This document shows, piece after piece, positions 57-10,531 of a DNA stretch of 64,000 nt. The translations under genes were made by a program, and so were the position numbers. Source of the DNA: Cupriavidus sp. AU9028 (GTDB lineage Bacteria > Pseudomonadota > Gammaproteobacteria > Burkholderiales > Burkholderiaceae); the NCBI RefSeq assembly GCF_019795295.1, contig NZ_JAIMCG010000012.1, positions 100,916 through 164,915 of the forward strand, in the 5' to 3' direction. The notes below the pieces were generated by a model. That model had not been told where the DNA came from. It did no database searches and saw nothing but the letters and a program-made list of their open reading frames with translations. Numbering within the stretch: the first letter of the stretch is position 1; each line of letters starts with the position of its first letter.

Positions 57-728
57 TCAGCGCAGGCTGCGCAGCACGGCGCGCACGGGGCTGGCGTCCA
101 GGGTGGCGAAGCGCAGCGGCAAGGCGATCAGCTCGTAGTCGCCGGGCGGGACCGCATCGAGCACCAGTCCTTCGAGAATCGCCATGCGGTGCCGGTGCAC
201 GGTGTGATGCGCGTCCATGGTTTTCGACTGCTGCGGGTCGAGCGACGGCGTGTCGATGCCGACCAGCCGCACGCCATGCGCGGCCAGCCGATCGAGCGTG
301 GCCGGGGCGACCGCGCAGAAGTTGGCGTCCCAGCTCGCCAGCGGTGCGTTGGCGTAGGTCCGCAGCAACACGCGCGGCGGCACGCCATCGAGCTGGCCCT
401 CCAGGTGCGCCGGCTCGACCAGCGGCGACGCGCCGATGCAATGGATGACACGGCAAGGGCCGAGGTAGGCGGTCAGGTCGACTTCGCCGATCGGTACGCC
501 GGCGGCGTCGTAATGCAGCGGGGCGTCGGCGTGCGCGCCGGTGTGCGGCGACAGCGTGATGCGTCCGACGTTGACGGGGCAATGCTGGTCAAGCTGCCAG
601 GCGACCTCCTGCCGGAAGGGCGTGTCGCCCGGCCAGACCGGCGTGGCCGGCGACAGCGGCGGACTGATGTCCCACAGCCGGCGCTGTTCCGAGTGGTGCA
701 AGGCTTCCGAGGCGATGGCGTGGTCCAT
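57..728 (-). CDS. kynB: Kynurenine formamidase (arylformamidase)
   Basis: KynB hydrolyses N-formyl-L-kynurenine to kynurenine and formate, the second step of tryptophan breakdown, in the cytoplasm. The 223-residue product has normal length for the KynB cyclase-like family. It carries the metal-binding pattern HTGAHAD at residues 62-68 (His62, His66, Asp68 as zinc ligands) and the family's active-site histidine in LHY at 71-73. The N-terminal WDISPPL and the WPGDTPF stretch are also typical. It is the first visible gene of a minus-strand operon whose next gene begins about 50 bases downstream at the window edge. A divergent Lrp-type regulator lies 143 bases upstream and probably controls it. 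Confidence 0.95.
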
Positions 729-871: not shown

Positions 872-1369
872 ATGAACCTCGACGCCACCGACCTGCGCAT
901 CCTCGAGTGCCTGCAAAGGAATGGGCGCATCAGCAACCAGGAACTGGCCGAGCGCGTGGCGCTGTCGCCATCGGCTTGCCTGCGGCGCGTTCGCCTGCTG
1001 GAAGAGAGCGGCATCATTGGCGGCTATCACGCCTGGTTCGACGCCGAGCGGCTGGGGCTGGAGCTGGAAGCCATCGTGCAGGTGTCGATGCGGCATGACG
1101 TGGAGGGCTGGCACGACACCTTCAACGCCGCGGTGCAGGGCTGGCCGGAGGTGCTGTCCGCCTATGTGATCACCGGCGATAGCAATTACATCCTGCGCGT
1201 GCAGGCGCGCAATCTGAAGCACTACTCGGACTTCATCGTGAACCGGCTGTATCGGACGCCGGGCGTGATGGATATCCGCTCCAACATCGTGCTGCAGCGG
1301 ATCAAGACCGGGGGATCGCCGCTGGCGCTGCTGCAGCCCGGCGCCCCCCGCGACACGGTGCCGGGCTGA
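872..1369 (+). CDS. kynR: Lrp/AsnC-family regulator, probably KynR
   Basis: The 165-residue product begins MNLDATDLRILECLQ, a standard Lrp/AsnC start with the winged helix-turn-helix in the first 60 residues (ISNQELAERVALS, then SACLRRVRLLEE). The ligand-binding RAM domain follows. An upstream in-frame ATG at 767 would add 35 residues unlike the family, so 872 was chosen. Lrp-type KynR proteins divergent from kyn genes are known activators of kynurenine catabolism in Pseudomonas and related bacteria and respond to kynurenine. Position and family both fit that role here. A different amino-acid effector cannot be excluded. Confidence 0.85.
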   Translation: MNLDATDLRILECLQRNGRISNQELAERVALSPSACLRRVRLLEESGIIGGYHAWFDAERLGLELEAIVQVSMRHDVEGWHDTFNAAVQGWPEVLSAYVITGDSNYILRVQARNLKHYSDFIVNRLYRTPGVMDIRSNIVLQRIKTGGSPLALLQPGAPRDTVPG

Positions 1370-1393: not shown

Positions 1394-1831
1394 CTAGCGC
1401 GTGGTGCCGGCGTGCAGTGCGATCAGCCGCCGCAGCGTCTGCTTGAGCCGTTCGCTGTCGCTGCCGCCGAAGGCGGCCAGCACCTGGGCTTCGTGCGCCG
1501 CCGCCTGCTGCAGCAGCGGCTGCGCGCGCTGGCGGCCACTGTCGGTGATCGACACCAGCGCATGGCGGCGATCCGGCGCGCTCCCGCGATGACGCACCAC
1601 CAGCCCGTCCGCCTGCATGCGGTCGATCAGCTTGGTCAGCGTCGGCTGCTTGGTCAGCGTGATGTCGGCCAGCGTGCCCACCGTGCAGGCCTCGCGGTCG
1701 GCCAGCGTGGCCAGTACCCGCCATTCCGGCACGCTCAGGCCCGCCGCCTCCACCTTGCGATGGAATTCGCCGGAGATCAGGTGGCTGGCTCGCGCAAGCA
1801 GATAGGGCAGGTAGCCGTCGACGAAGGTCAT
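1394..1831 (-). CDS. MarR-family transcriptional regulator
   Basis: This 145-residue protein has the MarR winged-helix layout. An N-terminal dimerisation helix (YLLARASHLISGEFHRKVEA) is followed by SVPEWRVLATLA and the recognition region TLADITLTKQPTLTKLIDRM near residues 55-75. The wing contains the classic DRRHALVSIT segment near 85-95. MarR proteins repress catabolic operons and release DNA on binding an aromatic ligand. NicR and PicR, regulators of nicotinate and picolinate degradation, belong to this family. It sits behind the flavin reductase on the minus strand, opposite the NicX-like operon, so it is the likely local regulator. Its ligand is unknown. Confidence 0.85.
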   Translation of the reverse strand: MTFVDGYLPYLLARASHLISGEFHRKVEAAGLSVPEWRVLATLADREACTVGTLADITLTKQPTLTKLIDRMQADGLVVRHRGSAPDRRHALVSITDSGRQRAQPLLQQAAAHEAQVLAAFGGSDSERLKQTLRRLIALHAGTTR

Positions 1832-1871
1832 GGTCGGTCCGTGCCCGCCCGCCGCTGTGCTGTCGCGCCGC

Positions 1872-2450
1872 TCAGTCGCGCAGCGGACAGATGGTGGAAA
1901 ACTCGCCGCTCTGGAAGATCAGCGGCAGCCCGCCGCCTTCGCGAATGCCGCAGCGCTCGACTTCGCCGACGAAGATCACGTGATCGCCTTCGTCATAGCG
2001 GCTGCGGTTGTGGCATTCGAACCAGGCCAGCGCATTGCCCAGGATCGGCAGGCCGGTCTCGGACAGCCGGTAGTCGACGCCGGCGAAGCGGTCTCCCTTG
2101 AGCGTCGCGAAGCGCTGGCACAGGTCCAGCTGCGTGGCGGCCAGCACGTTGACGATGTAGTGCGAACCGCCGCGGAACATCGGCAGGCTGTTGGCGCTGG
2201 TGGCCATGCTCCACAGCACCAGTGGCGGGTCCAGCGAGACCGAGTTGAACGAGCTGGCGGTGACGCCAACGAACGGCGGGTCGCCGGCCGTTTGCCGGAT
2301 CCCGCGTGTGGTGATCACGGTTACGCCGGTGGCGAACTGCGACAGCGCGCGGCGGAAGTGCCGGGCATCGAAGTCGGGCGCGGCGGCCTGACCCTGGCGG
2401 GACGGGTTGGTGTCAGGCAATCCCATAGCTGAGGCACCACTGAATTTCAT
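1872..2450 (-). CDS. Flavin reductase-like protein (FMN/FAD-binding split barrel)
   Basis: Flavin reductases of this family use NAD(P)H to make free FMNH2 or FADH2 for a partner monooxygenase. The product of up to 192 residues contains the signatures FRRALSQFATGVTVITT, TASSFNSVSLDPPLVLWSM, and HVIFVGEVERC near the C-terminus, as in HpaC-type small components. The start is uncertain: ATG at 2450 lies inside a 14-base palindrome, and an in-frame ATG at 2426 (MGLPDTN) is an alternative. It lies 40 bases from the MarR gene, probably in one transcript, and is divergent from the NicX-like operon. A dedicated oxygenase partner is not obvious unless it is the acyl-CoA-dehydrogenase-like protein at 4618. 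Confidence 0.88.
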   Translation of the reverse strand: MKFSGASAMGLPDTNPSRQGQAAAPDFDARHFRRALSQFATGVTVITTRGIRQTAGDPPFVGVTASSFNSVSLDPPLVLWSMATSANSLPMFRGGSHYIVNVLAATQLDLCQRFATLKGDRFAGVDYRLSETGLPILGNALAWFECHNRSRYDEGDHVIFVGEVERCGIREGGGLPLIFQSGEFSTICPLRD

Positions 2451-2456
2451 GAAATT
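2443..2456. promoter_or_regulatory. 14-bp palindrome with overlapping direct repeats, candidate MarR operator
   Basis: AATTTCATGAAATT at 2443-2456 is a perfect palindrome. The heptamer ATTTCAT occurs at 2444-2450 and again at 2454-2460, one helical turn apart, followed by the AT-rich TATATT at 2460-2465 that could be a -10 element for the plus-strand operon. It lies at the divergent junction between the flavin reductase and the NicX-like gene. Size and symmetry suit a MarR dimer site. Binding is inferred. Confidence 0.5.
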
Positions 2457-2606
2457 TCATATATTATTGGCGCCAGACGGGGGAATCACAAGCGCCGCGG
2501 CCATTGCGCTGGCGGCGGCGTCGGGCGCGCCGTTCTCTCTCGACTGCCCGAAACCCGCAACAGTCATGCCCGGTGTCCGGCGGGCCGCGCCGTCAGGAGG
2601 AGAGAC

Positions 2607-3683
2607 ATGCTGCTCGAGCAGATCGAACATCGCTGGCTGGCGGCCTTTCGCCGCACGCTGGAGCTTTGCGCGCTGGCGCCCGGCGATGTGGTAGGGATTG
2701 TAACGGAGTCGCAATCCCGACAAGTCCTTGTGGAGTTGGCCGACCTGGCGGTGCAGGCGATGGGAGCGACGCCCGTTCGCCTGCGCGTGCCGACGCCCGC
2801 GCTCGACGTGCCGGCGCCGGTGCGCTCGACCGGGGCCAGCGACGCGCTGCAGCAGCTGGAGCCGGTGATCGCGGCGCTGTCGCGCTGCCAGCTGGTACTC
2901 GACTGCACGGTGGAGGGCCTGCTGCATGCGCCAGAGCTGCCGCGCATTCTGGCGGGCGCCGACGGCGTGGTGCCCCGCCTGCTGATGATCAGCAACGAAC
3001 ATCCGGAAATCCTCGAACGCTGCCTGCCCGATGCCCAGCTGGAAAGCACGGTCCGGGCGGCAATGCGGCGGCTGCGCGGTGCGCGCCAGATGCAGGTGAG
3101 CTCCGCCGCCGGCACGTCGCTGCAGATCGGCCTGGACGGCGCCCGCGTCGGCGGGGTCTGGGGCTACTGCAACAAGCCAGGCCAGGTCGCCCACTGGCCG
3201 GGCGGCCTATGCCTGGCCTTCCCCGGCGCCGGTCAGGTCAGCGGCACGCTGGTGCTGGCGCCGGGCGACGTCAACCTGACCTTCAAGACCTATCTGCGCG
3301 ACCGCATCGTCTGCCAGATCGAGAACGACCATATCGTCGCCATCGAGGGCAGCGGCGTCGATGCGGAGATGATGCGCGGGTACTACGCGGCGTGGGCGGA
3401 TCGCGAGGGCAGCCAGGCCGCCTATGCGGTGTCGCATGTCGGCTGGGGGCTGAACCGGCGCGCGCGCTGGGATGCGCTGGCCTTCTACGACAAGCGCGAC
3501 TGCAACGGCACCGAGCTGCGCGCCTTCGCCGGCAACTTCCTCTATTCGACCGGCGCCAACGAGGTGGCGGGCCGGCACACGCTGGGCCACTTCGACCTGC
3601 CGCTGCGCAACTGCACGGTCGCGCTCGATGGCGTGAACGAGGTCGATCAGGGCCAGCTGGTGGAGCCGGGCGCCCAGGGGTAA
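2607..3683 (+). CDS. NicX-like 2,5-dihydroxypyridine 5,6-dioxygenase
   Basis: NicX is a mononuclear-iron ring-cleavage dioxygenase that opens 2,5-dihydroxypyridine between C5 and C6 to give N-formylmaleamate. The product has 358 residues, close to the roughly 350 of NicX. It has the C-terminal pattern SHVGWGLN (His277) followed about 50 residues later by GHFD (His328, Asp330), matching the His/His-x-Asp iron triad I recall for Pseudomonas putida NicX. A strong ribosome site AGGAGGAGAG precedes the ATG. The family resembles M29 aminopeptidases, which explains alternative database names. A deformylase gene follows after 37 bases. The exact hydroxypyridine used is unknown. Confidence 0.8.
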   Translation: MLLEQIEHRWLAAFRRTLELCALAPGDVVGIVTESQSRQVLVELADLAVQAMGATPVRLRVPTPALDVPAPVRSTGASDALQQLEPVIAALSRCQLVLDCTVEGLLHAPELPRILAGADGVVPRLLMISNEHPEILERCLPDAQLESTVRAAMRRLRGARQMQVSSAAGTSLQIGLDGARVGGVWGYCNKPGQVAHWPGGLCLAFPGAGQVSGTLVLAPGDVNLTFKTYLRDRIVCQIENDHIVAIEGSGVDAEMMRGYYAAWADREGSQAAYAVSHVGWGLNRRARWDALAFYDKRDCNGTELRAFAGNFLYSTGANEVAGRHTLGHFDLPLRNCTVALDGVNEVDQGQLVEPGAQG

Positions 3684-3720
3684 CGTCAACGCCTTCCCTT
3701 CCGTCACGAGACACGCTTCC

Positions 3721-4557
3721 ATGCCAACCGATCCGGACGCCTTGCCCTCTCCCCAACTGCAGCGCCATGCCAACGGCATCGCCACCCTGACCGCCGGCAC
3801 CGGGCCGGTGGCGCTCGTGCTGCTGCACGGGATCGGCGGCGGCAAGGCGGCCTGGCCCGGACAGCTCGCCGCACTGGCCGCGTGCGGCTACCGGGCGGTG
3901 GCGTGGGACATGCCCGGGTACGGCGACTCGCCGCTGATCGACCCCTACGACTTCGCCGCACTGGCGGCGGCGCTGGTGCCCGTGCTGGATGCCGAGCGGC
4001 AGCAGGGCCGCCGCGTGGTGCTGCTCGGGCACAGCATGGGCGGCATGGTGGCGCAGGAAGCCTGCGCGGCCACGCCGGAGCGGATCGACGGCATGGTGCT
4101 GTCGGGCACGTCGGCCGCCTTCGGCAAGCCGGATGGCGACTGGCAGCAGGAGTTCGTCGCCGCCCGCACCGCGCCGCTGGATGCGGGGCAGAGCATGGCG
4201 TCGCTGGCCGCCAGCCTGGTGCGCGGCATGGTGGCGCCCGATGCGCCGGCCGAGGGAGTGGCGCTGGCCACCTCGGTGATGGCGGCCGTGCCGCCGCAGA
4301 CCTATCGCGCCGCGCTCGGTGCGCTGGTGCGTTTCGACCGGCGCGAGGCGCTTGGCCGCATTGCCGTGCCGGTGCTGCTGCTGGCGGGCGAGCACGACCG
4401 CAATGCCGCGCCGGCGGTGATGGAGCGGATGGCGCCGCGCATCGCCGATGCCGAATACCGGTGCCTGCCAGGCGTCGGCCACCTGGCCAACATGGAACGG
4501 CCGGACCTGTTCAATGCCGCGCTGCTGGACTTCCTGCAGCGCCGCTTTCCGCTGTGA
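3721..4557 (+). CDS. Alpha/beta hydrolase, NicD-like N-formylmaleamate deformylase
   Basis: The 278-residue protein is a complete alpha/beta hydrolase. It has an oxyanion loop LLHGIGGGKAAW near residue 38, nucleophile elbow GHSMGG with Ser105, acid Asp226 in GEHD, and His254 in GVGHLANME. In nicotinate degradation NicD removes formate from N-formylmaleamate, the product of NicX, and the two genes are usually adjacent, as here. Function is therefore assigned mainly from context. The hydrolase fold alone would also allow another ester or amide substrate. The next gene starts 60 bases downstream on the same strand. Confidence 0.72.
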   Translation: MPTDPDALPSPQLQRHANGIATLTAGTGPVALVLLHGIGGGKAAWPGQLAALAACGYRAVAWDMPGYGDSPLIDPYDFAALAAALVPVLDAERQQGRRVVLLGHSMGGMVAQEACAATPERIDGMVLSGTSAAFGKPDGDWQQEFVAARTAPLDAGQSMASLAASLVRGMVAPDAPAEGVALATSVMAAVPPQTYRAALGALVRFDRREALGRIAVPVLLLAGEHDRNAAPAVMERMAPRIADAEYRCLPGVGHLANMERPDLFNAALLDFLQRRFPL

Positions 4558-4617
4558 TGACCACGCCGGCCTGACCGAACGCTCCGATCGGCACAGCCGC
4601 CCTTGCGAGGAACCCCG

Positions 4618-5862
4618 ATGCAGCTCGACTTCATTCCGGCCGTTGGCGAGGCCGATTTCACCGAGGCGCAGGCGCGCCTGCTGTCGTTGGCCAACCGGCT
4701 GGGCCGCGAGCGCTTCGCGCCGCGGGCGGCGCAGTGGGACCGCGAGGCCAGCTTCCCCTTCGCCAACTACGACGACCTGCGCGAGGCCGGCCTGCTGGCG
4801 CTGTGCGTGCCGCGCGAATTCGGCGGGCAGGGCGCGGATTTCGCCACCTATTGCATGATCGGCGCGGAGATCGGCCGCTTCTGCGGCGCCACCGCGCTGA
4901 CTTACAACATGCACATCTGCTCGACGATGTGGACAGGCGTGCTGGCCGACGGCATCCCGATGACGCCCGAGCAGCGCAAAGAGCATGCATCGCGCCGCGG
5001 CCTGCATTTCGAGCGGGTGGTGCGCGACGGCGCGGTCTACGCGCAGCCGTTTTCCGAAGGATCGGCCGCGGCCGCCGGCAAGGCGCCCTTCGGTACCGCG
5101 GCGCGCAAGGTCGAGGGCGGCTGGGTGCTCAATGGCCGCAAGATCTTCGCCTCGCTGTCGGGCGCGGCCGATTACTACGGCATCCTTTGCACCGAGGACC
5201 GCGGCGACCAGCATCCCGACATGCGCGACACGCTCTATATCGCGGTGCCCGCCAGCGCCGAGGGCGTGACGGTGACGGGCGACTGGGACCCGATGGGCAT
5301 GCGCGGCACGGTGTCGCGCACGCTGCTGCTCAAGGACGTGTTCGTCGCCGACCACGAGCAGCTGATGCCGCGCGGGGTCTACTACAAGGCCGCGCAGACG
5401 TGGCCGGCGATGTTCTTCACGCTGTCGCCGACCTACCTGGGCATCGCGCAGGCCGCATACGATTTCACGGTGCAGTACCTGCGCGGCGAGGTGCCGGGCC
5501 AGCCGCCAGTCAAGCGGCGGATGTACCCGACCAAGCAGATCGCGGTGGCGCAGATGCGCATCCAGCTCGAATCGATGCGCTCGCTGTTCTGGCGGGCGAT
5601 CCATGAAGCCGGCCCCAATCCGTCGCGCGACCAGCGTCTGCGCCTGTACGCCGCCCACTACAGCGTGATGGAGGGCGCCAACGATATCGCCCGGCTGGCG
5701 ATCCGCACCTGTGGCGGCCAGTCGATGCTCAAGGACCTGCCGCTGGAACGGCTGTATCGCGATTCGCGTTGCGGCGCGCTGATGCTGCCGTGGACGGCCG
5801 AGCTGATCCTCGACCGGATGGGGCGGGAAACGCTGTACGAGCCGGGCGAGCGCGACGAATGA
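4618..5862 (+). CDS. Acyl-CoA dehydrogenase-fold flavoprotein lacking the usual catalytic glutamates
   Basis: The 414-residue protein has the acyl-CoA dehydrogenase layout. A helical N-terminal domain (LLALCVPREFGGQGADF) precedes a flavin-binding middle (WVLNGRKIFASLSGAADYYG) and a C-terminal helical bundle. The usual catalytic base, the Glu of a C-terminal YEG motif, is replaced by GALMLPWTAE. The alternative Glu position used by isovaleryl- and long-chain enzymes appears to hold Trp (AAQTWPAMFF). It may be an atypical dehydrogenase or a group D flavin monooxygenase, which shares this fold and needs a reductase such as the one at 1872. ATG 4618 follows GAGGAA; the TTG at 4603 was rejected. 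It overlaps the next gene by four bases. Confidence 0.8.
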   Translation: MQLDFIPAVGEADFTEAQARLLSLANRLGRERFAPRAAQWDREASFPFANYDDLREAGLLALCVPREFGGQGADFATYCMIGAEIGRFCGATALTYNMHICSTMWTGVLADGIPMTPEQRKEHASRRGLHFERVVRDGAVYAQPFSEGSAAAAGKAPFGTAARKVEGGWVLNGRKIFASLSGAADYYGILCTEDRGDQHPDMRDTLYIAVPASAEGVTVTGDWDPMGMRGTVSRTLLLKDVFVADHEQLMPRGVYYKAAQTWPAMFFTLSPTYLGIAQAAYDFTVQYLRGEVPGQPPVKRRMYPTKQIAVAQMRIQLESMRSLFWRAIHEAGPNPSRDQRLRLYAAHYSVMEGANDIARLAIRTCGGQSMLKDLPLERLYRDSRCGALMLPWTAELILDRMGRETLYEPGERDE

Positions 5863-7559
5863 CGATGGCAGATCGACCCTCCGGCGATGCAGCGGGGCCG
5901 GCGCGCAAGCAGCGGGGCCGCGGCGCCGGGGGGCCGCCCCACATCGGAGCGGACCGTCTCGGCGCGCTGCTCAAGCCGCTGCATGCGCTGGCACTGGCCG
6001 AGCCGTTGCGCCCGGCGCTGGACTTCCAGGGCAGCACCATCGGCTACGGCAAGCTGTGGAGCCGCATCGAACGCGTCACTGCCCACCTTGCTGCGTCCTG
6101 GGACGTCGGCAAGGGCGACCGCGTGGCGACGCTATGCTTCAACCACGACCTGCAGCTGGCGATGCTGTTCGCCTGCGCTCGCCTCGGGGCGATCTTCCTG
6201 CCGCTGAACTACCGGCTCGCCGTGCCCGAACTGGCCACGATCGCCGCGCATGCTGGCGTGCGGGCGATCTTCCACGACGACGCGCACGCCGGGCTGGCCG
6301 ATGCGGTATGCATGCAACTGGGCGAGGCCGCCGCCGCCGGCGCCGCGCAGATCCTCGCCGATCCGATCGCCGGCACGATGGTGCCGGCCGCATTGCCGCA
6401 GGCACCGGCGCACGCGCATATCGACCGGCTGATCGACCGCGCCGCGCCAGCCGACCCGGACCCCGGGCCGATGCCGGACGATACACCGGTGCTGCTGGTG
6501 TACACCTCCGGCACCACCGGGCAGCCGAAGGGGGCGCTGCATACGCAGGCGGCGCTGCTGGCCAATGCCCGCGCCAGCTGGTGGGCGCACGGGATGACGG
6601 GCGACGACCATGTCCTGAGCACGTTGCCGCTATTCCATGTCGGGGGCCTGTGCATCCAGACGCTGCCCGCGCTGCTGGCCGGCGCCCGCGTCACGCTGCA
6701 CGAACGCTTTGCGCCGGCCGACTGGCTGGACGCGGTGGCGCACGCCAGGCCGACGCTGTCGCTGATGGTGCCCGCTACGCTGCGGGCGGTGCTGGAGCAC
6801 CCGGCGTGGCCGGGCACCGACCTGTCCTCGCTGCGCGGGGTGATGGCCGGCTCGTCGACCATACCGCTCGCCTATATCGACGCCTTTCATGCGCGCGGGG
6901 TGCCGCTGGGCCAGATCTATGGCGCCACCGAGACCGGTCCGGTGTCCGTGGTGCTGCGCCTCGATCAGGCGATGGCGCGGCCGGGGTATGCCGGCTGGCC
7001 GCAACCGGAGGCGCAGGTACGCCTGACCGCCGAGAACGGCAGCGAAGTGGCCGACGGCGAGGTCGGCGAGATCTGGCTGCGCGCGCCCAACCTGATGCGC
7101 GGGTACTGGCGCGACCCGGCGCATCCGGCCTTCGTGGACGGGTGGTTCCGTTCCGGTGACCTGGCGCACCGCGACGTCGATGGCTGCATCGAGGTGGTGG
7201 GGCGCAGCAAGGACATGATCATCTCCGGTGGCGAGAACATCTATCCGGCGGAGATCGAGAACGAACTGGTGGTGCTGCCCGAGGTCGGTGAATGCGCCGT
7301 GGTCGGGCTGCCGGATCCGCGCTGGGGCGAAGTGCCCGTCGCCGCGATCGTGCCGGCGAGCGGAGCCGATCCGGCGCGGCTGCAGCCCGAGGCGATACGC
7401 GAGGCGCTGTCGGCACGGATCGCCCGCTTCAAGCTGCCGCGCGAGGTGGTGCTGGTCGATGCGCTGCCCAAGAGTGCGCTGGGCAAGGTGGTCAAGCCGC
7501 GCCTGCGAGCCATGCTGGAGGCGGCGCGGCGCGACGGCGGTCCGGCGCCCGCTCCCTGA
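5859..7559 (+). CDS. AMP-dependent acyl-CoA synthetase/ligase
   Basis: This 566-residue enzyme should activate a carboxylic acid to its CoA thioester with ATP via an acyl-adenylate. The P-loop YTSGTTGQPKG starts at residue 215. Motifs IYGATETGP, GWFRSGDLAHRD and GRSKDMIISGGENIYP are present, and the catalytic lysine is Lys543 in SALGKV. Its ATG overlaps the stop of the preceding gene as ATGA, so translation is probably coupled. The in-frame ATG at 5865 is an alternative. The substrate is unknown. In this operon a pyridine or aromatic carboxylate, or a ring-opened dicarboxylate, is more likely than an ordinary fatty acid, but this is inference. Confidence 0.9.
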   Translation: MTMADRPSGDAAGPARKQRGRGAGGPPHIGADRLGALLKPLHALALAEPLRPALDFQGSTIGYGKLWSRIERVTAHLAASWDVGKGDRVATLCFNHDLQLAMLFACARLGAIFLPLNYRLAVPELATIAAHAGVRAIFHDDAHAGLADAVCMQLGEAAAAGAAQILADPIAGTMVPAALPQAPAHAHIDRLIDRAAPADPDPGPMPDDTPVLLVYTSGTTGQPKGALHTQAALLANARASWWAHGMTGDDHVLSTLPLFHVGGLCIQTLPALLAGARVTLHERFAPADWLDAVAHARPTLSLMVPATLRAVLEHPAWPGTDLSSLRGVMAGSSTIPLAYIDAFHARGVPLGQIYGATETGPVSVVLRLDQAMARPGYAGWPQPEAQVRLTAENGSEVADGEVGEIWLRAPNLMRGYWRDPAHPAFVDGWFRSGDLAHRDVDGCIEVVGRSKDMIISGGENIYPAEIENELVVLPEVGECAVVGLPDPRWGEVPVAAIVPASGADPARLQPEAIREALSARIARFKLPREVVLVDALPKSALGKVVKPRLRAMLEAARRDGGPAPAP

Positions 7560-9298: not shown

Positions 9299-10531
9299 TC
9301 AGTCCAGCGTCGTCTCGTAGATATAGCGGCGCGACCACGGCAAGGTGCTGGCGCGGCGGCTGGCCTTGTGGCAGACGACCTGATAGATCGACATTTTCTC
9401 GCCTTCGAAGGCCTGCGCACAACCGGCCAGGTAGACGCGCCAGATGCGGTACTTGCGCTCGCCGATCATCTCGCGGATGGTGTCGCCCCTGGCCTCGAAG
9501 TTGTCGGCCCAATGCCGCAACGTCGTCGCGTAGTGCCGGCGCAGCAGCTCGACATCGAAGGCCTCCAGCCCGCCCTTGCTGAGCGTATCGAGCACCAGGC
9601 CGATATGCGGCAGCTCCCCTTGCGGGAACACATAGCGATTCATGAACTCCGCGCCGTCCATCGGCTCCTTGCCGTTGTCGGCATCCGGGGTGGTGATGCC
9701 ATGGTTCATGGCCACCCCGTCGTCGGCCAGCAGCTCGCACATCCGGGAGAAATAGCGGACCAGATTGTCCTTGCCGACATGCTCGAACATGCCGACGCTG
9801 GTGATGCGGTCGAAGGTGCCGCCAACGTCGCGATAGTCCTGCAGGCGGATCTCGATGCGGTCCGACAGGCCCGCCTCCCGCACGCGTTCGGTCGCCAGGG
9901 CGAACTGGTTTTCCGACAGCGTGATGCCGACACAGCGCGCGCCGAATTTCTGCGCGGCGCGCAGCACCAGTGCACCCCAGCCGCAGCCGATATCGAGCAG
10001 GGTCTGGCCCGGCTGCAGGCGGATCTTGGTCAGGATATGGTCGATCTTCTTCAGCTGGGCGGTGGCCAGGTCTTCGTTGCCGTGCTCGAAGTAGGCGCAC
10101 GAATAGACCATGTTTGGGTCCAGCCACAGCCGGTAGAAGTCGTTCGAGACGTCGTAGTGGTACTCGATGGACTTCTTGTCTTCCTGCCGGGTGTGCGAGA
10201 AGTGCCTTGCCACGCGGGCGATGGCGCTGCCGGCCAGCTTGCTGGTCGCGCTGGACAGGCCGTAGGCCACCTCGATGATGTCCGAGAGCCTGCCGTCGAC
10301 GTCGATCTTTTCCTGGACATACGCCTCGCCCAGGTTGTCCAGGGTCGGGCTGAGCAGCAGCGGCAGCGCGGCCGCTTCGCGCACGGTCAGCGTGACCGCC
10401 GGCTGGGTGCTGCGCGCCAGCGAATACTCGTGCCCATCCCACAGACGCAGCTTGACCGGCAGGTCGGCCTGCTCGCGCATGCCCGCGATCCAGCGGTCCA
10501 GTTGCGTGTCCAGTGCTTGCTTGAAAAACAT
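9299..10531 (-). CDS. cfa: Cyclopropane-fatty-acyl-phospholipid synthase
   Basis: The enzyme methylenates double bonds of membrane phospholipid acyl chains using S-adenosylmethionine, a stationary-phase and acid-stress adaptation. The 410-residue product has the family's N-terminal lipid-binding domain and the catalytic methyltransferase core. YHYDVSNDFYRLWLD, MVYSCAYFEHG, the SAM loop LLDIGCGWGALV near residue 175, and SVGMFEHVG are all visible. The start at 10531 follows GGGAGGAAG; the frame extends 14 codons further but without support. It lies 23 bases upstream of the DUF72 gene on the same strand. Confidence 0.95.
   Translation of the reverse strand: MFFKQALDTQLDRWIAGMREQADLPVKLRLWDGHEYSLARSTQPAVTLTVREAAALPLLLSPTLDNLGEAYVQEKIDVDGRLSDIIEVAYGLSSATSKLAGSAIARVARHFSHTRQEDKKSIEYHYDVSNDFYRLWLDPNMVYSCAYFEHGNEDLATAQLKKIDHILTKIRLQPGQTLLDIGCGWGALVLRAAQKFGARCVGITLSENQFALATERVREAGLSDRIEIRLQDYRDVGGTFDRITSVGMFEHVGKDNLVRYFSRMCELLADDGVAMNHGITTPDADNGKEPMDGAEFMNRYVFPQGELPHIGLVLDTLSKGGLEAFDVELLRRHYATTLRHWADNFEARGDTIREMIGERKYRIWRVYLAGCAQAFEGEKMSIYQVVCHKASRRASTLPWSRRYIYETTLD

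Follow-up and report, generated by a model that had tools for sequence, protein, structure and literature searches.

Which ring does a pyridine-type ring-cleavage dioxygenase open when its operon also encodes an acyl-CoA ligase? This question is raised by a six-gene module of Cupriavidus sp. AU9028 (genome 4.68 Mb), located in a 64-kb stretch of DNA referred to here as the window, in which a relative of the dioxygenase NicX, termed NicXL, is encoded together with an alpha/beta hydrolase (ABH), an acyl-CoA-dehydrogenase (ACAD)-fold flavoprotein, an AMP-forming acyl-CoA ligase (LIG), a flavin reductase and a MarR regulator. The module adjoins the genes leading from tryptophan via kynurenine to anthranilate, and we see an even chance that it serves, under MarR control, solely to catabolise an aromatic acid from the tryptophan/anthranilate family, whose ring would be cleaved in a CoA-dependent manner. 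What appears new is the NicX-family dioxygenase with an altered pocket in a CoA-dependent setting; no description of such an operon was found in the titles, abstracts and passages covered by our topical searches of the open-licence literature. The module consists of the following features:

1394..1831, minus strand: MarR regulator of the module (PF12802, 52.3 bits; HpaR-like match below cut-off)
1872..2450, minus strand: flavin reductase, predicted to serve the flavoprotein (PF01613, 128.3 bits)
2449..2460, no strand: palindrome ATGAAATTTCAT, predicted MarR operator
2607..3683, plus strand: NicXL, NicX-family Fe(II) ring-cleavage dioxygenase with altered substrate pocket (NicX, 7cn3, E 2.6e-49)
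3721..4557, plus strand: alpha/beta hydrolase, for which deformylase, thioesterase or C-C hydrolase activity is predicted (PF12697)
4603..5862, plus strand: ACAD-fold flavoprotein, predicted acyl-CoA oxygenase (PF02771/02770/00441)
5859..7559, plus strand: AMP-forming acyl-CoA ligase (PF00501, 261.7 bits)

All six reading frames are open at these coordinates and belong to the families named in an original prediction made from the DNA letters, and the four-base overlap between the ACAD and ligase genes is ATGA (5859-5862), as seen there. A scan of named genomes yielded at least 571 stretches encoding a NicXL relative at E 1e-3, looser relatives included, of which the best 80 were analysed, with gene layouts taken from tblastn. 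The order NicXL-ABH-ACAD-LIG is kept in 60 of these 80 named loci, so the gene set is not a product of chance; MarR is found in 61 and the flavin reductase in 64 of them. The synteny comparison suggested by the original prediction shows the module recurring in many Burkholderiales and in some other bacteria.

The NicX-family dioxygenase

In a phmmer search NicXL matched NicX of P. putida KT2440 (PDB 7cn3) with an E-value of 2.6e-49, the three further hits all having E > 0.1, and no Pfam or NCBIfam model matched it at E 0.001. Alignment to NicX bears out the predicted iron triad His277/His328/Asp330 and adds Ser314, with Arg305 adjacent. The equivalent NicX ligands His265, Ser302, His318 and Asp320, plus Arg293, are kept in all 14 NicXL members, the window protein included. 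Judged by its sequence, NicXL is a NicX-family Fe(II) dioxygenase. The similarity to NicX extends to the fold and to two further pocket positions, as His107 aligns with NicX His105, a position occupied by His in 14/14 NicXL, and His196 with NicX His189, which is kept in 13/14. NicXL differs from NicX in its operon partners, in a two-residue insertion in front of the His105 loop (Glu103-Gly104, invariant in 13/13 NicXL) and in the loss of Glu177. This column holds Val184 in the window protein, V, A, I, T or N in all 14 aligned members and Glu in none of them, whereas Glu is present in three nic-type sequences, including the NicX of the same genome, and Gln in two other paralogues.

Passages of the 2021 NicX paper (PMC7910607) describe that NicX cleaves the C5-C6 bond of dihydroxypyridine to give N-formylmaleamate, that Glu177 forms hydrogen bonds with N1 and O1 of 2,5-dihydroxypyridine, the E177A variant retaining 2.7% activity, and that His105 is given a strong role; its authors were also aware of no further enzyme cleaving a pyridine ring whose crystal structure had been solved. 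The aligned pocket residues of NicXL point away from the usual pyridine and suggest a substrate other than 2,5-dihydroxypyridine. Two points temper this reading: His189, a contact to O1 of dihydroxypyridine, is mostly retained, and single pocket residues vary, since nic-type proteins bear Phe at the His105 position. The latter was observed in the AU9028 nic-type NicX (L033:8619-9644) and in two relatives. The AlphaFold model of NicXL (mean pLDDT 71.9, weak stretch 288-329) is shallow and was used for comparing the overall fold. A widespread sister group of NicX with the same iron site and the pyridine-holding residue gone implies another ring-opening chemistry, and the genomic partners of NicXL narrow the candidate substrates to a short list.

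Partner enzymes

The ACAD-fold protein probably lacks the usual catalytic Glu, an assignment that depends on the alignment used. When the protein was aligned jointly with eight ordinary ACAD-superfamily members drawn from the loci, and also by hhalign, Leu395-Pro396 faces the Glu of the GcdH-type TYEGT motif in 21/21 members, and what we take to be the isovaleryl-type catalytic position is occupied by Met, with one Val. The predicted structure (pLDDT 80.7) has its top fold match by E-value in 5z8t, titled flavin-containing monooxygenase (TM 0.73). The neighbouring flavin reductase has the HPAH reductase as its best NCBIfam model, with 158.1 bits below the cut-off of 340. The p-hydroxyphenylacetate 3-hydroxylase reductase (C1) likewise consists of a flavin reductase followed by a MarR-like domain; this arrangement is matched by a single fused protein in two relatives of the module (L073 and L075), while the window encodes reductase and MarR as two genes. 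Based on the apparent loss of the catalytic Glu and the fusion of reductase and MarR in relatives, the ACAD-fold protein may use flavin, delivered by the reductase as its partner, to oxygenate a CoA ester. A precedent for such O2 chemistry is described in passages on TdaE of tropone biosynthesis (PMC8283759), an ACAD-like flavoenzyme that acts on a CoA ester with O2 and was supplied by a separate flavin reductase in one assay. TdaE is biosynthetic and concerns a seven-membered ring, and it is likened to the module protein by description and not by homology.

Several findings speak against the oxygenase assignment. A smaller alignment set the GcdH Glu against Glu400 instead (Glu or Asp in 21/21), and several of the eight ordinary controls are likewise without Glu at the column in question. 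Acyl-CoA dehydrogenases match the ACAD model closely, several of them at higher TM, and the protein scores nearer to them than to class D monooxygenases. The reductase also stands beside the kyn genes in all 24 genomes of the genus that lack the operon, and could therefore have a second partner.

The hydrolase carries the Ser-Asp-His triad noticed originally, with Ser in a GHSMGG motif and Asp and His at canonical places, and it scores 151.8 bits with PcaDC and 128.9 bits with PcaD, both under the cut-offs. Its description as NicD-like did not hold: it reaches E 0.019 against the NicD candidate of its own genome, while the L050 candidate aligns over 123 aa at E 0.002, and tblastn at seven loci gave no match between the two kinds of hydrolase at 1e-3. 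We reject the hydrolase as a NicD relative on sequence, noting that the NicD candidates themselves are named by position. The hydrolases at L076:6638-7918 and L163:14389-15678 bear an added N-terminal polyketide-cyclase-type domain (PF10604). For the ligase, the nearest solved structures are 8weu and 8wev, titled fatty-acyl and feruloyl-CoA synthetase.

Linkage to kynurenine and anthranilate genes

The features on the kynurenine side of the module are:

57..728, minus strand: kynB, arylformamidase, a neighbour of the module (TIGR03035, 334.9 bits, cut-off 223)
872..1369, plus strand: Lrp/AsnC regulator adjoining the kyn genes (PF01037, PF13412), next to kynB in 24/24 loci of the genus without the operon

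Directly beyond the window edge, kynB is followed by kynU and kynA, the latter matching TIGR03036 with 453 bits, over the cut-off. Within the fetched flanks, genes for kynurenine formation and cleavage (kyn) or for the aerobic 2-aminobenzoyl-CoA pathway (abm) occur at 42 of the 80 named loci (kyn 21, abm 22, both 1). In Cupriavidus and Pandoraea, kynAUB adjoins the module; a complete abm operon does so in many Limnohabitans-like loci. L128 combines kynAUB with an AbmA-type gene, and AbmA-type genes are also present at L034, L141 and L155. Shinella, an alphaproteobacterium, encodes KynA together with an AbmG-type ligase 5-8 kb 3' of the hydrolase gene and a kynureninase about 16 kb off; the AbmG-type protein matches the benzoate-CoA-ligase family over the cut-off and is 51% identical to the abm ligase, and KynA likewise scores over its cut-off. 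AbmA-type genes match NCBIfam NF006101 (salicylyl-CoA 5-hydroxylase/oxidoreductase). The labels AbmA and AbmG rest on the surrounding abm-like operon and on the published abm genes of Cupriavidus, reported in passages of PMC8879955 and PMC2842291, the former of which states that C. metallidurans CH34 does not grow on anthranilate. The abm pathway resembles the module in its aerobic CoA-activated aromatic chemistry and frequent adjacency, and differs in consisting of AbmA, an FAD monooxygenase with an OYE domain, and beta-oxidation-type enzymes, with no ring-cleavage dioxygenase.

The linkage also appears at the level of whole genomes. An AbmA homologue was found in 34 of 45 chosen carriers (37 from the named set of 80, the other 8 being quality-graded genomes), as against a full-length match in 3/40 genomes from other families of the order, one of them itself a carrier, and a kynureninase over the cut-off in 35/49 carrier genomes or plasmid records as against 4/40, both comparisons being biased by taxonomy. 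In a sample from a single genus, that of L100 (n=80), AbmA is present in 51/60 carriers versus 6/20 non-carriers (Fisher p 9e-6), a co-occurrence that incomplete assemblies could inflate. All 38 NicXL/AbmA pairs on the same contig in this sample are 6.6-24.5 kb apart, and 13/51 lie on different contigs. Kynurenine-derived acids had been among the checks proposed originally, and the linkage to kyn and abm points to such acids.

Two simple explanations of the linkage were rejected. NicXL does not replace abm in the genus Cupriavidus, as AbmA-type genes occur in the AU9028 genome and in nearly all 60 genus genomes, with or without NicXL; nor is the connection between NicXL and AbmA obligate. A gene for a GcdH-like acyl-CoA dehydrogenase (our reading; NCBIfam below cut-off) was observed at L001:10472-11737, and in several lineages such genes have kyn or AbmA-type neighbours (also L034, L128 and L155), so that anthranilate catabolism may run via glutaryl-CoA.

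Proposed pathway and alternatives

For the module we propose that the ligase would first form the acyl-CoA of an aromatic acid, whose ring would then be oxygenated by the ACAD-fold flavoprotein with reduced flavin from the flavin reductase. NicXL would open this ring by the NicX reaction, in which HO-C=CH-N is converted into COOH and N-formyl, on a substrate other than 2,5-dihydroxypyridine, and the alpha/beta hydrolase would complete the product. As leading chemistry we tentatively suggest that a 3-hydroxyindole- or quinoline-type ring, derived for instance from indole-3-carboxylate, would be opened to N-formylanthranilate, which the hydrolase would deformylate to anthranilate. Such a chemistry would give the ligase, oxygenase and hydrolase each a role and would explain why Glu177 is replaced by a hydrophobic residue. 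We saw no recurring amidase, isomerase, hydratase or aldolase with the operon, and the formation of N-formylanthranilate would explain both this absence and the frequent anthranilate genes nearby. That the complete route, from an indole or quinoline acid through an ACAD-fold flavin oxygenase and a NicX-family dioxygenase into the adjacent kyn/abm node, constitutes a new use of the NicX fold is possible and rather doubtful in its entirety.

A number of observations weigh against a tryptophan/anthranilate substrate. Neither kyn nor abm genes were found at 38 of the 80 loci, some of which lie on short contigs, and AbmA is missing in 11/45 searched carriers. Two genomes, G190 and G312 (100% complete), carry NicXL-ACAD-LIG and gave no match for AbmA (E 1e-100), an AbmG-type ligase (E 1e-120) or kynureninase. 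Loci with an abm operon already own an AbmG-type ligase, so the module ligase must act on another substrate there, and the alphaproteobacterial operons of L162, L163 and L165 contain a glutamine-synthetase-like gene and a permease, with no adjacent ligase of this type.

The main rival, which we consider a doubtful to unlikely one, has the module cleave the aminobenzoate ring itself: anthraniloyl-CoA or 5-hydroxyanthraniloyl-CoA would be oxygenated and opened by NicXL, which would provide a salvage or alternative route beside abm. AbmA-, AbmG- and kyn-type genes are its frequent neighbours, and a passage of PMC3534580 cites 5-hydroxyanthraniloyl-CoA as being formed by 2-aminobenzoyl-CoA monooxygenase/reductase under NADH limitation. 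The hydroxyl group para to the amino group of this compound resembles the para-oxygens of dihydroxypyridine; His189 is mostly kept, and TdaE is described as salvaging what another CoA pathway yields as a shunt product (PMC8283759). This rival is weakened by the absence of AbmA from 4/8 quality-graded carriers and by the two anthranilate ligases that abm-operon loci would then carry; moreover, the cleaved C7 product would need more enzymes, none of which was seen recurring across genera.

It is unlikely, though less so than a pyridine route, that the neighbourhood is accidental and that the substrate is an aromatic acid of some unrelated kind, such as one giving a hydroquinone- or 4-aminophenol-type ring. 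The 38 loci without kyn or abm genes and the two genomes with neither pathway would fit such an acid, as would a promoter palindrome that occurs once in the AU9028 genome and is absent at the kyn genes. Yet beta- and alphaproteobacteria show these same two pathways beside the operon in different gene orders, and the co-occurrence holds inside one genus sample.

Quite unlikely is the pathway that had been inferred originally, in which a hydroxypyridine carboxylate would first be esterified with CoA and its ring then cleaved in the manner of the nic or pic pathways. NicXL shares 37% identity over 355 aligned positions with the nic-type NicX of its own genome, its iron site is intact, and the Phe of the nic-type protein at the His105 position shows that pocket residues vary. 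Against this stand the loss of Glu177 in 14/14 and an operon that, in Pfam and NCBIfam scans, contains neither maleamate amidase nor maleate isomerase, as had been noted, and that also has no NicD relative. Furthermore, a separate nic cluster on another contig (C14, L033) fills that role, and the module's neighbours are kyn and abm genes. The second NicX-family gene of the genome is located in this cluster and scores 415 bits to KT2440 NicX versus 171 for the window protein; it is accompanied by NicC (533 bits to 5eow), NicE (389 bits to a maleate isomerase) and a Mo-hydroxylase subunit. The cluster presumably also encodes NicD (9680-10519) and NicF (216 residues, no NCBIfam model match), names that we assign by gene position. 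Both gene groups combine a NicX-family dioxygenase with an alpha/beta hydrolase; the module is without NicC, NicF, NicE and Mo-hydroxylase, its hydrolase is unrelated to NicD, and CoA ligase and ACAD-fold protein are added. Of the original interpretation, the Fe(II) dioxygenase, the presence of CoA-ligase chemistry within its operon and a non-nic substrate are supported, whereas a hydroxypyridine substrate is not supported; of the two things named there as speaking against it together, a nic cluster elsewhere was found, and membership of these genes in a known unrelated pathway was not. Finally, the identity of NicXL as an M29 aminopeptidase, suggested by the annotation of plasmid relatives and a distant fold likeness to PepS and AmpT, is refuted on sequence and fold and next to impossible, since the protein fits NicX far better (TM 0.83 to 7cn3 versus 0.51-0.58 to these M29 peptidases, besides the phmmer match) and no Pfam M29 match was obtained, the PF02073 profile giving zero matches across the genome.

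Predicted regulation and probable loss of the operon

The preferred assignment to a MarR-controlled module draws on a palindrome in front of NicXL. The motif ATGAANNTTCAT was found 5' of NicXL in 26/26 Cupriavidus loci (20 distinct genes), 26/32 Limnohabitans-like, 8/9 Pandoraea and 8/28 other loci, and in 0/9 of Rubrivivax and Polaromonas, the taxon groups being our own. It is largely confined to this position, with 68 of 75 hits in 1.81 Mb lying inside the 300 bp before NicXL, and has a single occurrence in the AU9028 genome, at 2449-2460. As the palindrome extends into the first codon of the flavin reductase, the true start of the latter may be a later Met.

A kynureninase match is present in all 60 genus genomes, two of them in pieces. 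In the 24 genomes without the operon, gcdH-like, IclR, kynA, kynU, kynB, Lrp and flavin reductase genes occur together in 24/24, MarR remains in 1/24, and NicXL, hydrolase, ACAD and ligase are found in 0/24. Since Pandoraea holds the operon at the same place, its loss is the simpler account. Among these 24 kyn loci the palindrome is present at the MarR-retaining locus alone, so that in 24/24 the two occur together or are missing together, which fits the palindrome as predicted MarR operator. MarR and the single palindrome would then make a natural sensor for the acid handled by the module.

Distribution of the module

The NicXL gene occurs in 36 of 60 genus genomes, the 35 others at 76-85% identity, in 1/40 genomes from other families of the same order and, at E 1e-72, in 7 of the other 368 genomes sampled from the class. 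In Shinella, only NicXL, ACAD and hydrolase could be resolved. On plasmids of Ensifer, Sinorhizobium and Aminobacter, NicXL-ACAD-hydrolase is accompanied by genes for TetR, a glutamine-synthetase-like protein and an amino acid permease, and a ligase of the module's type is absent from their vicinity. NicXL relatives on Ensifer and Aminobacter plasmids (L162 and L163) are annotated as peptidase M29 in public records, and the pathway is partly hidden by this annotation.

Just 5' of the module, the Aminobacter plasmid pAA02 (L163:8263-11248) encodes a gentisate/5-aminosalicylate-dioxygenase-like cupin, a fumarylacetoacetate-hydrolase-family protein and a nitrilase-like protein; the dioxygenase-like and nitrilase-like matches are below the cut-offs, and these two genes are compatible with N-formylanthranilate chemistry as well as with aminobenzoate cleavage. 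Transporter genes of L077 were dropped as a clue to the substrate, as they look like a sulfonate cluster in our reading of the ORF starts. A Dolichospermum plasmid (L166:11989-13236) bears a lone ACAD relative with 58% identity and no partner gene in the annotated stretch. In G190 (L074:4507-15673), NicXL-ACAD-LIG lie on the same strand between genes that we read as pgk- and pyk-like, within a glycolytic run.

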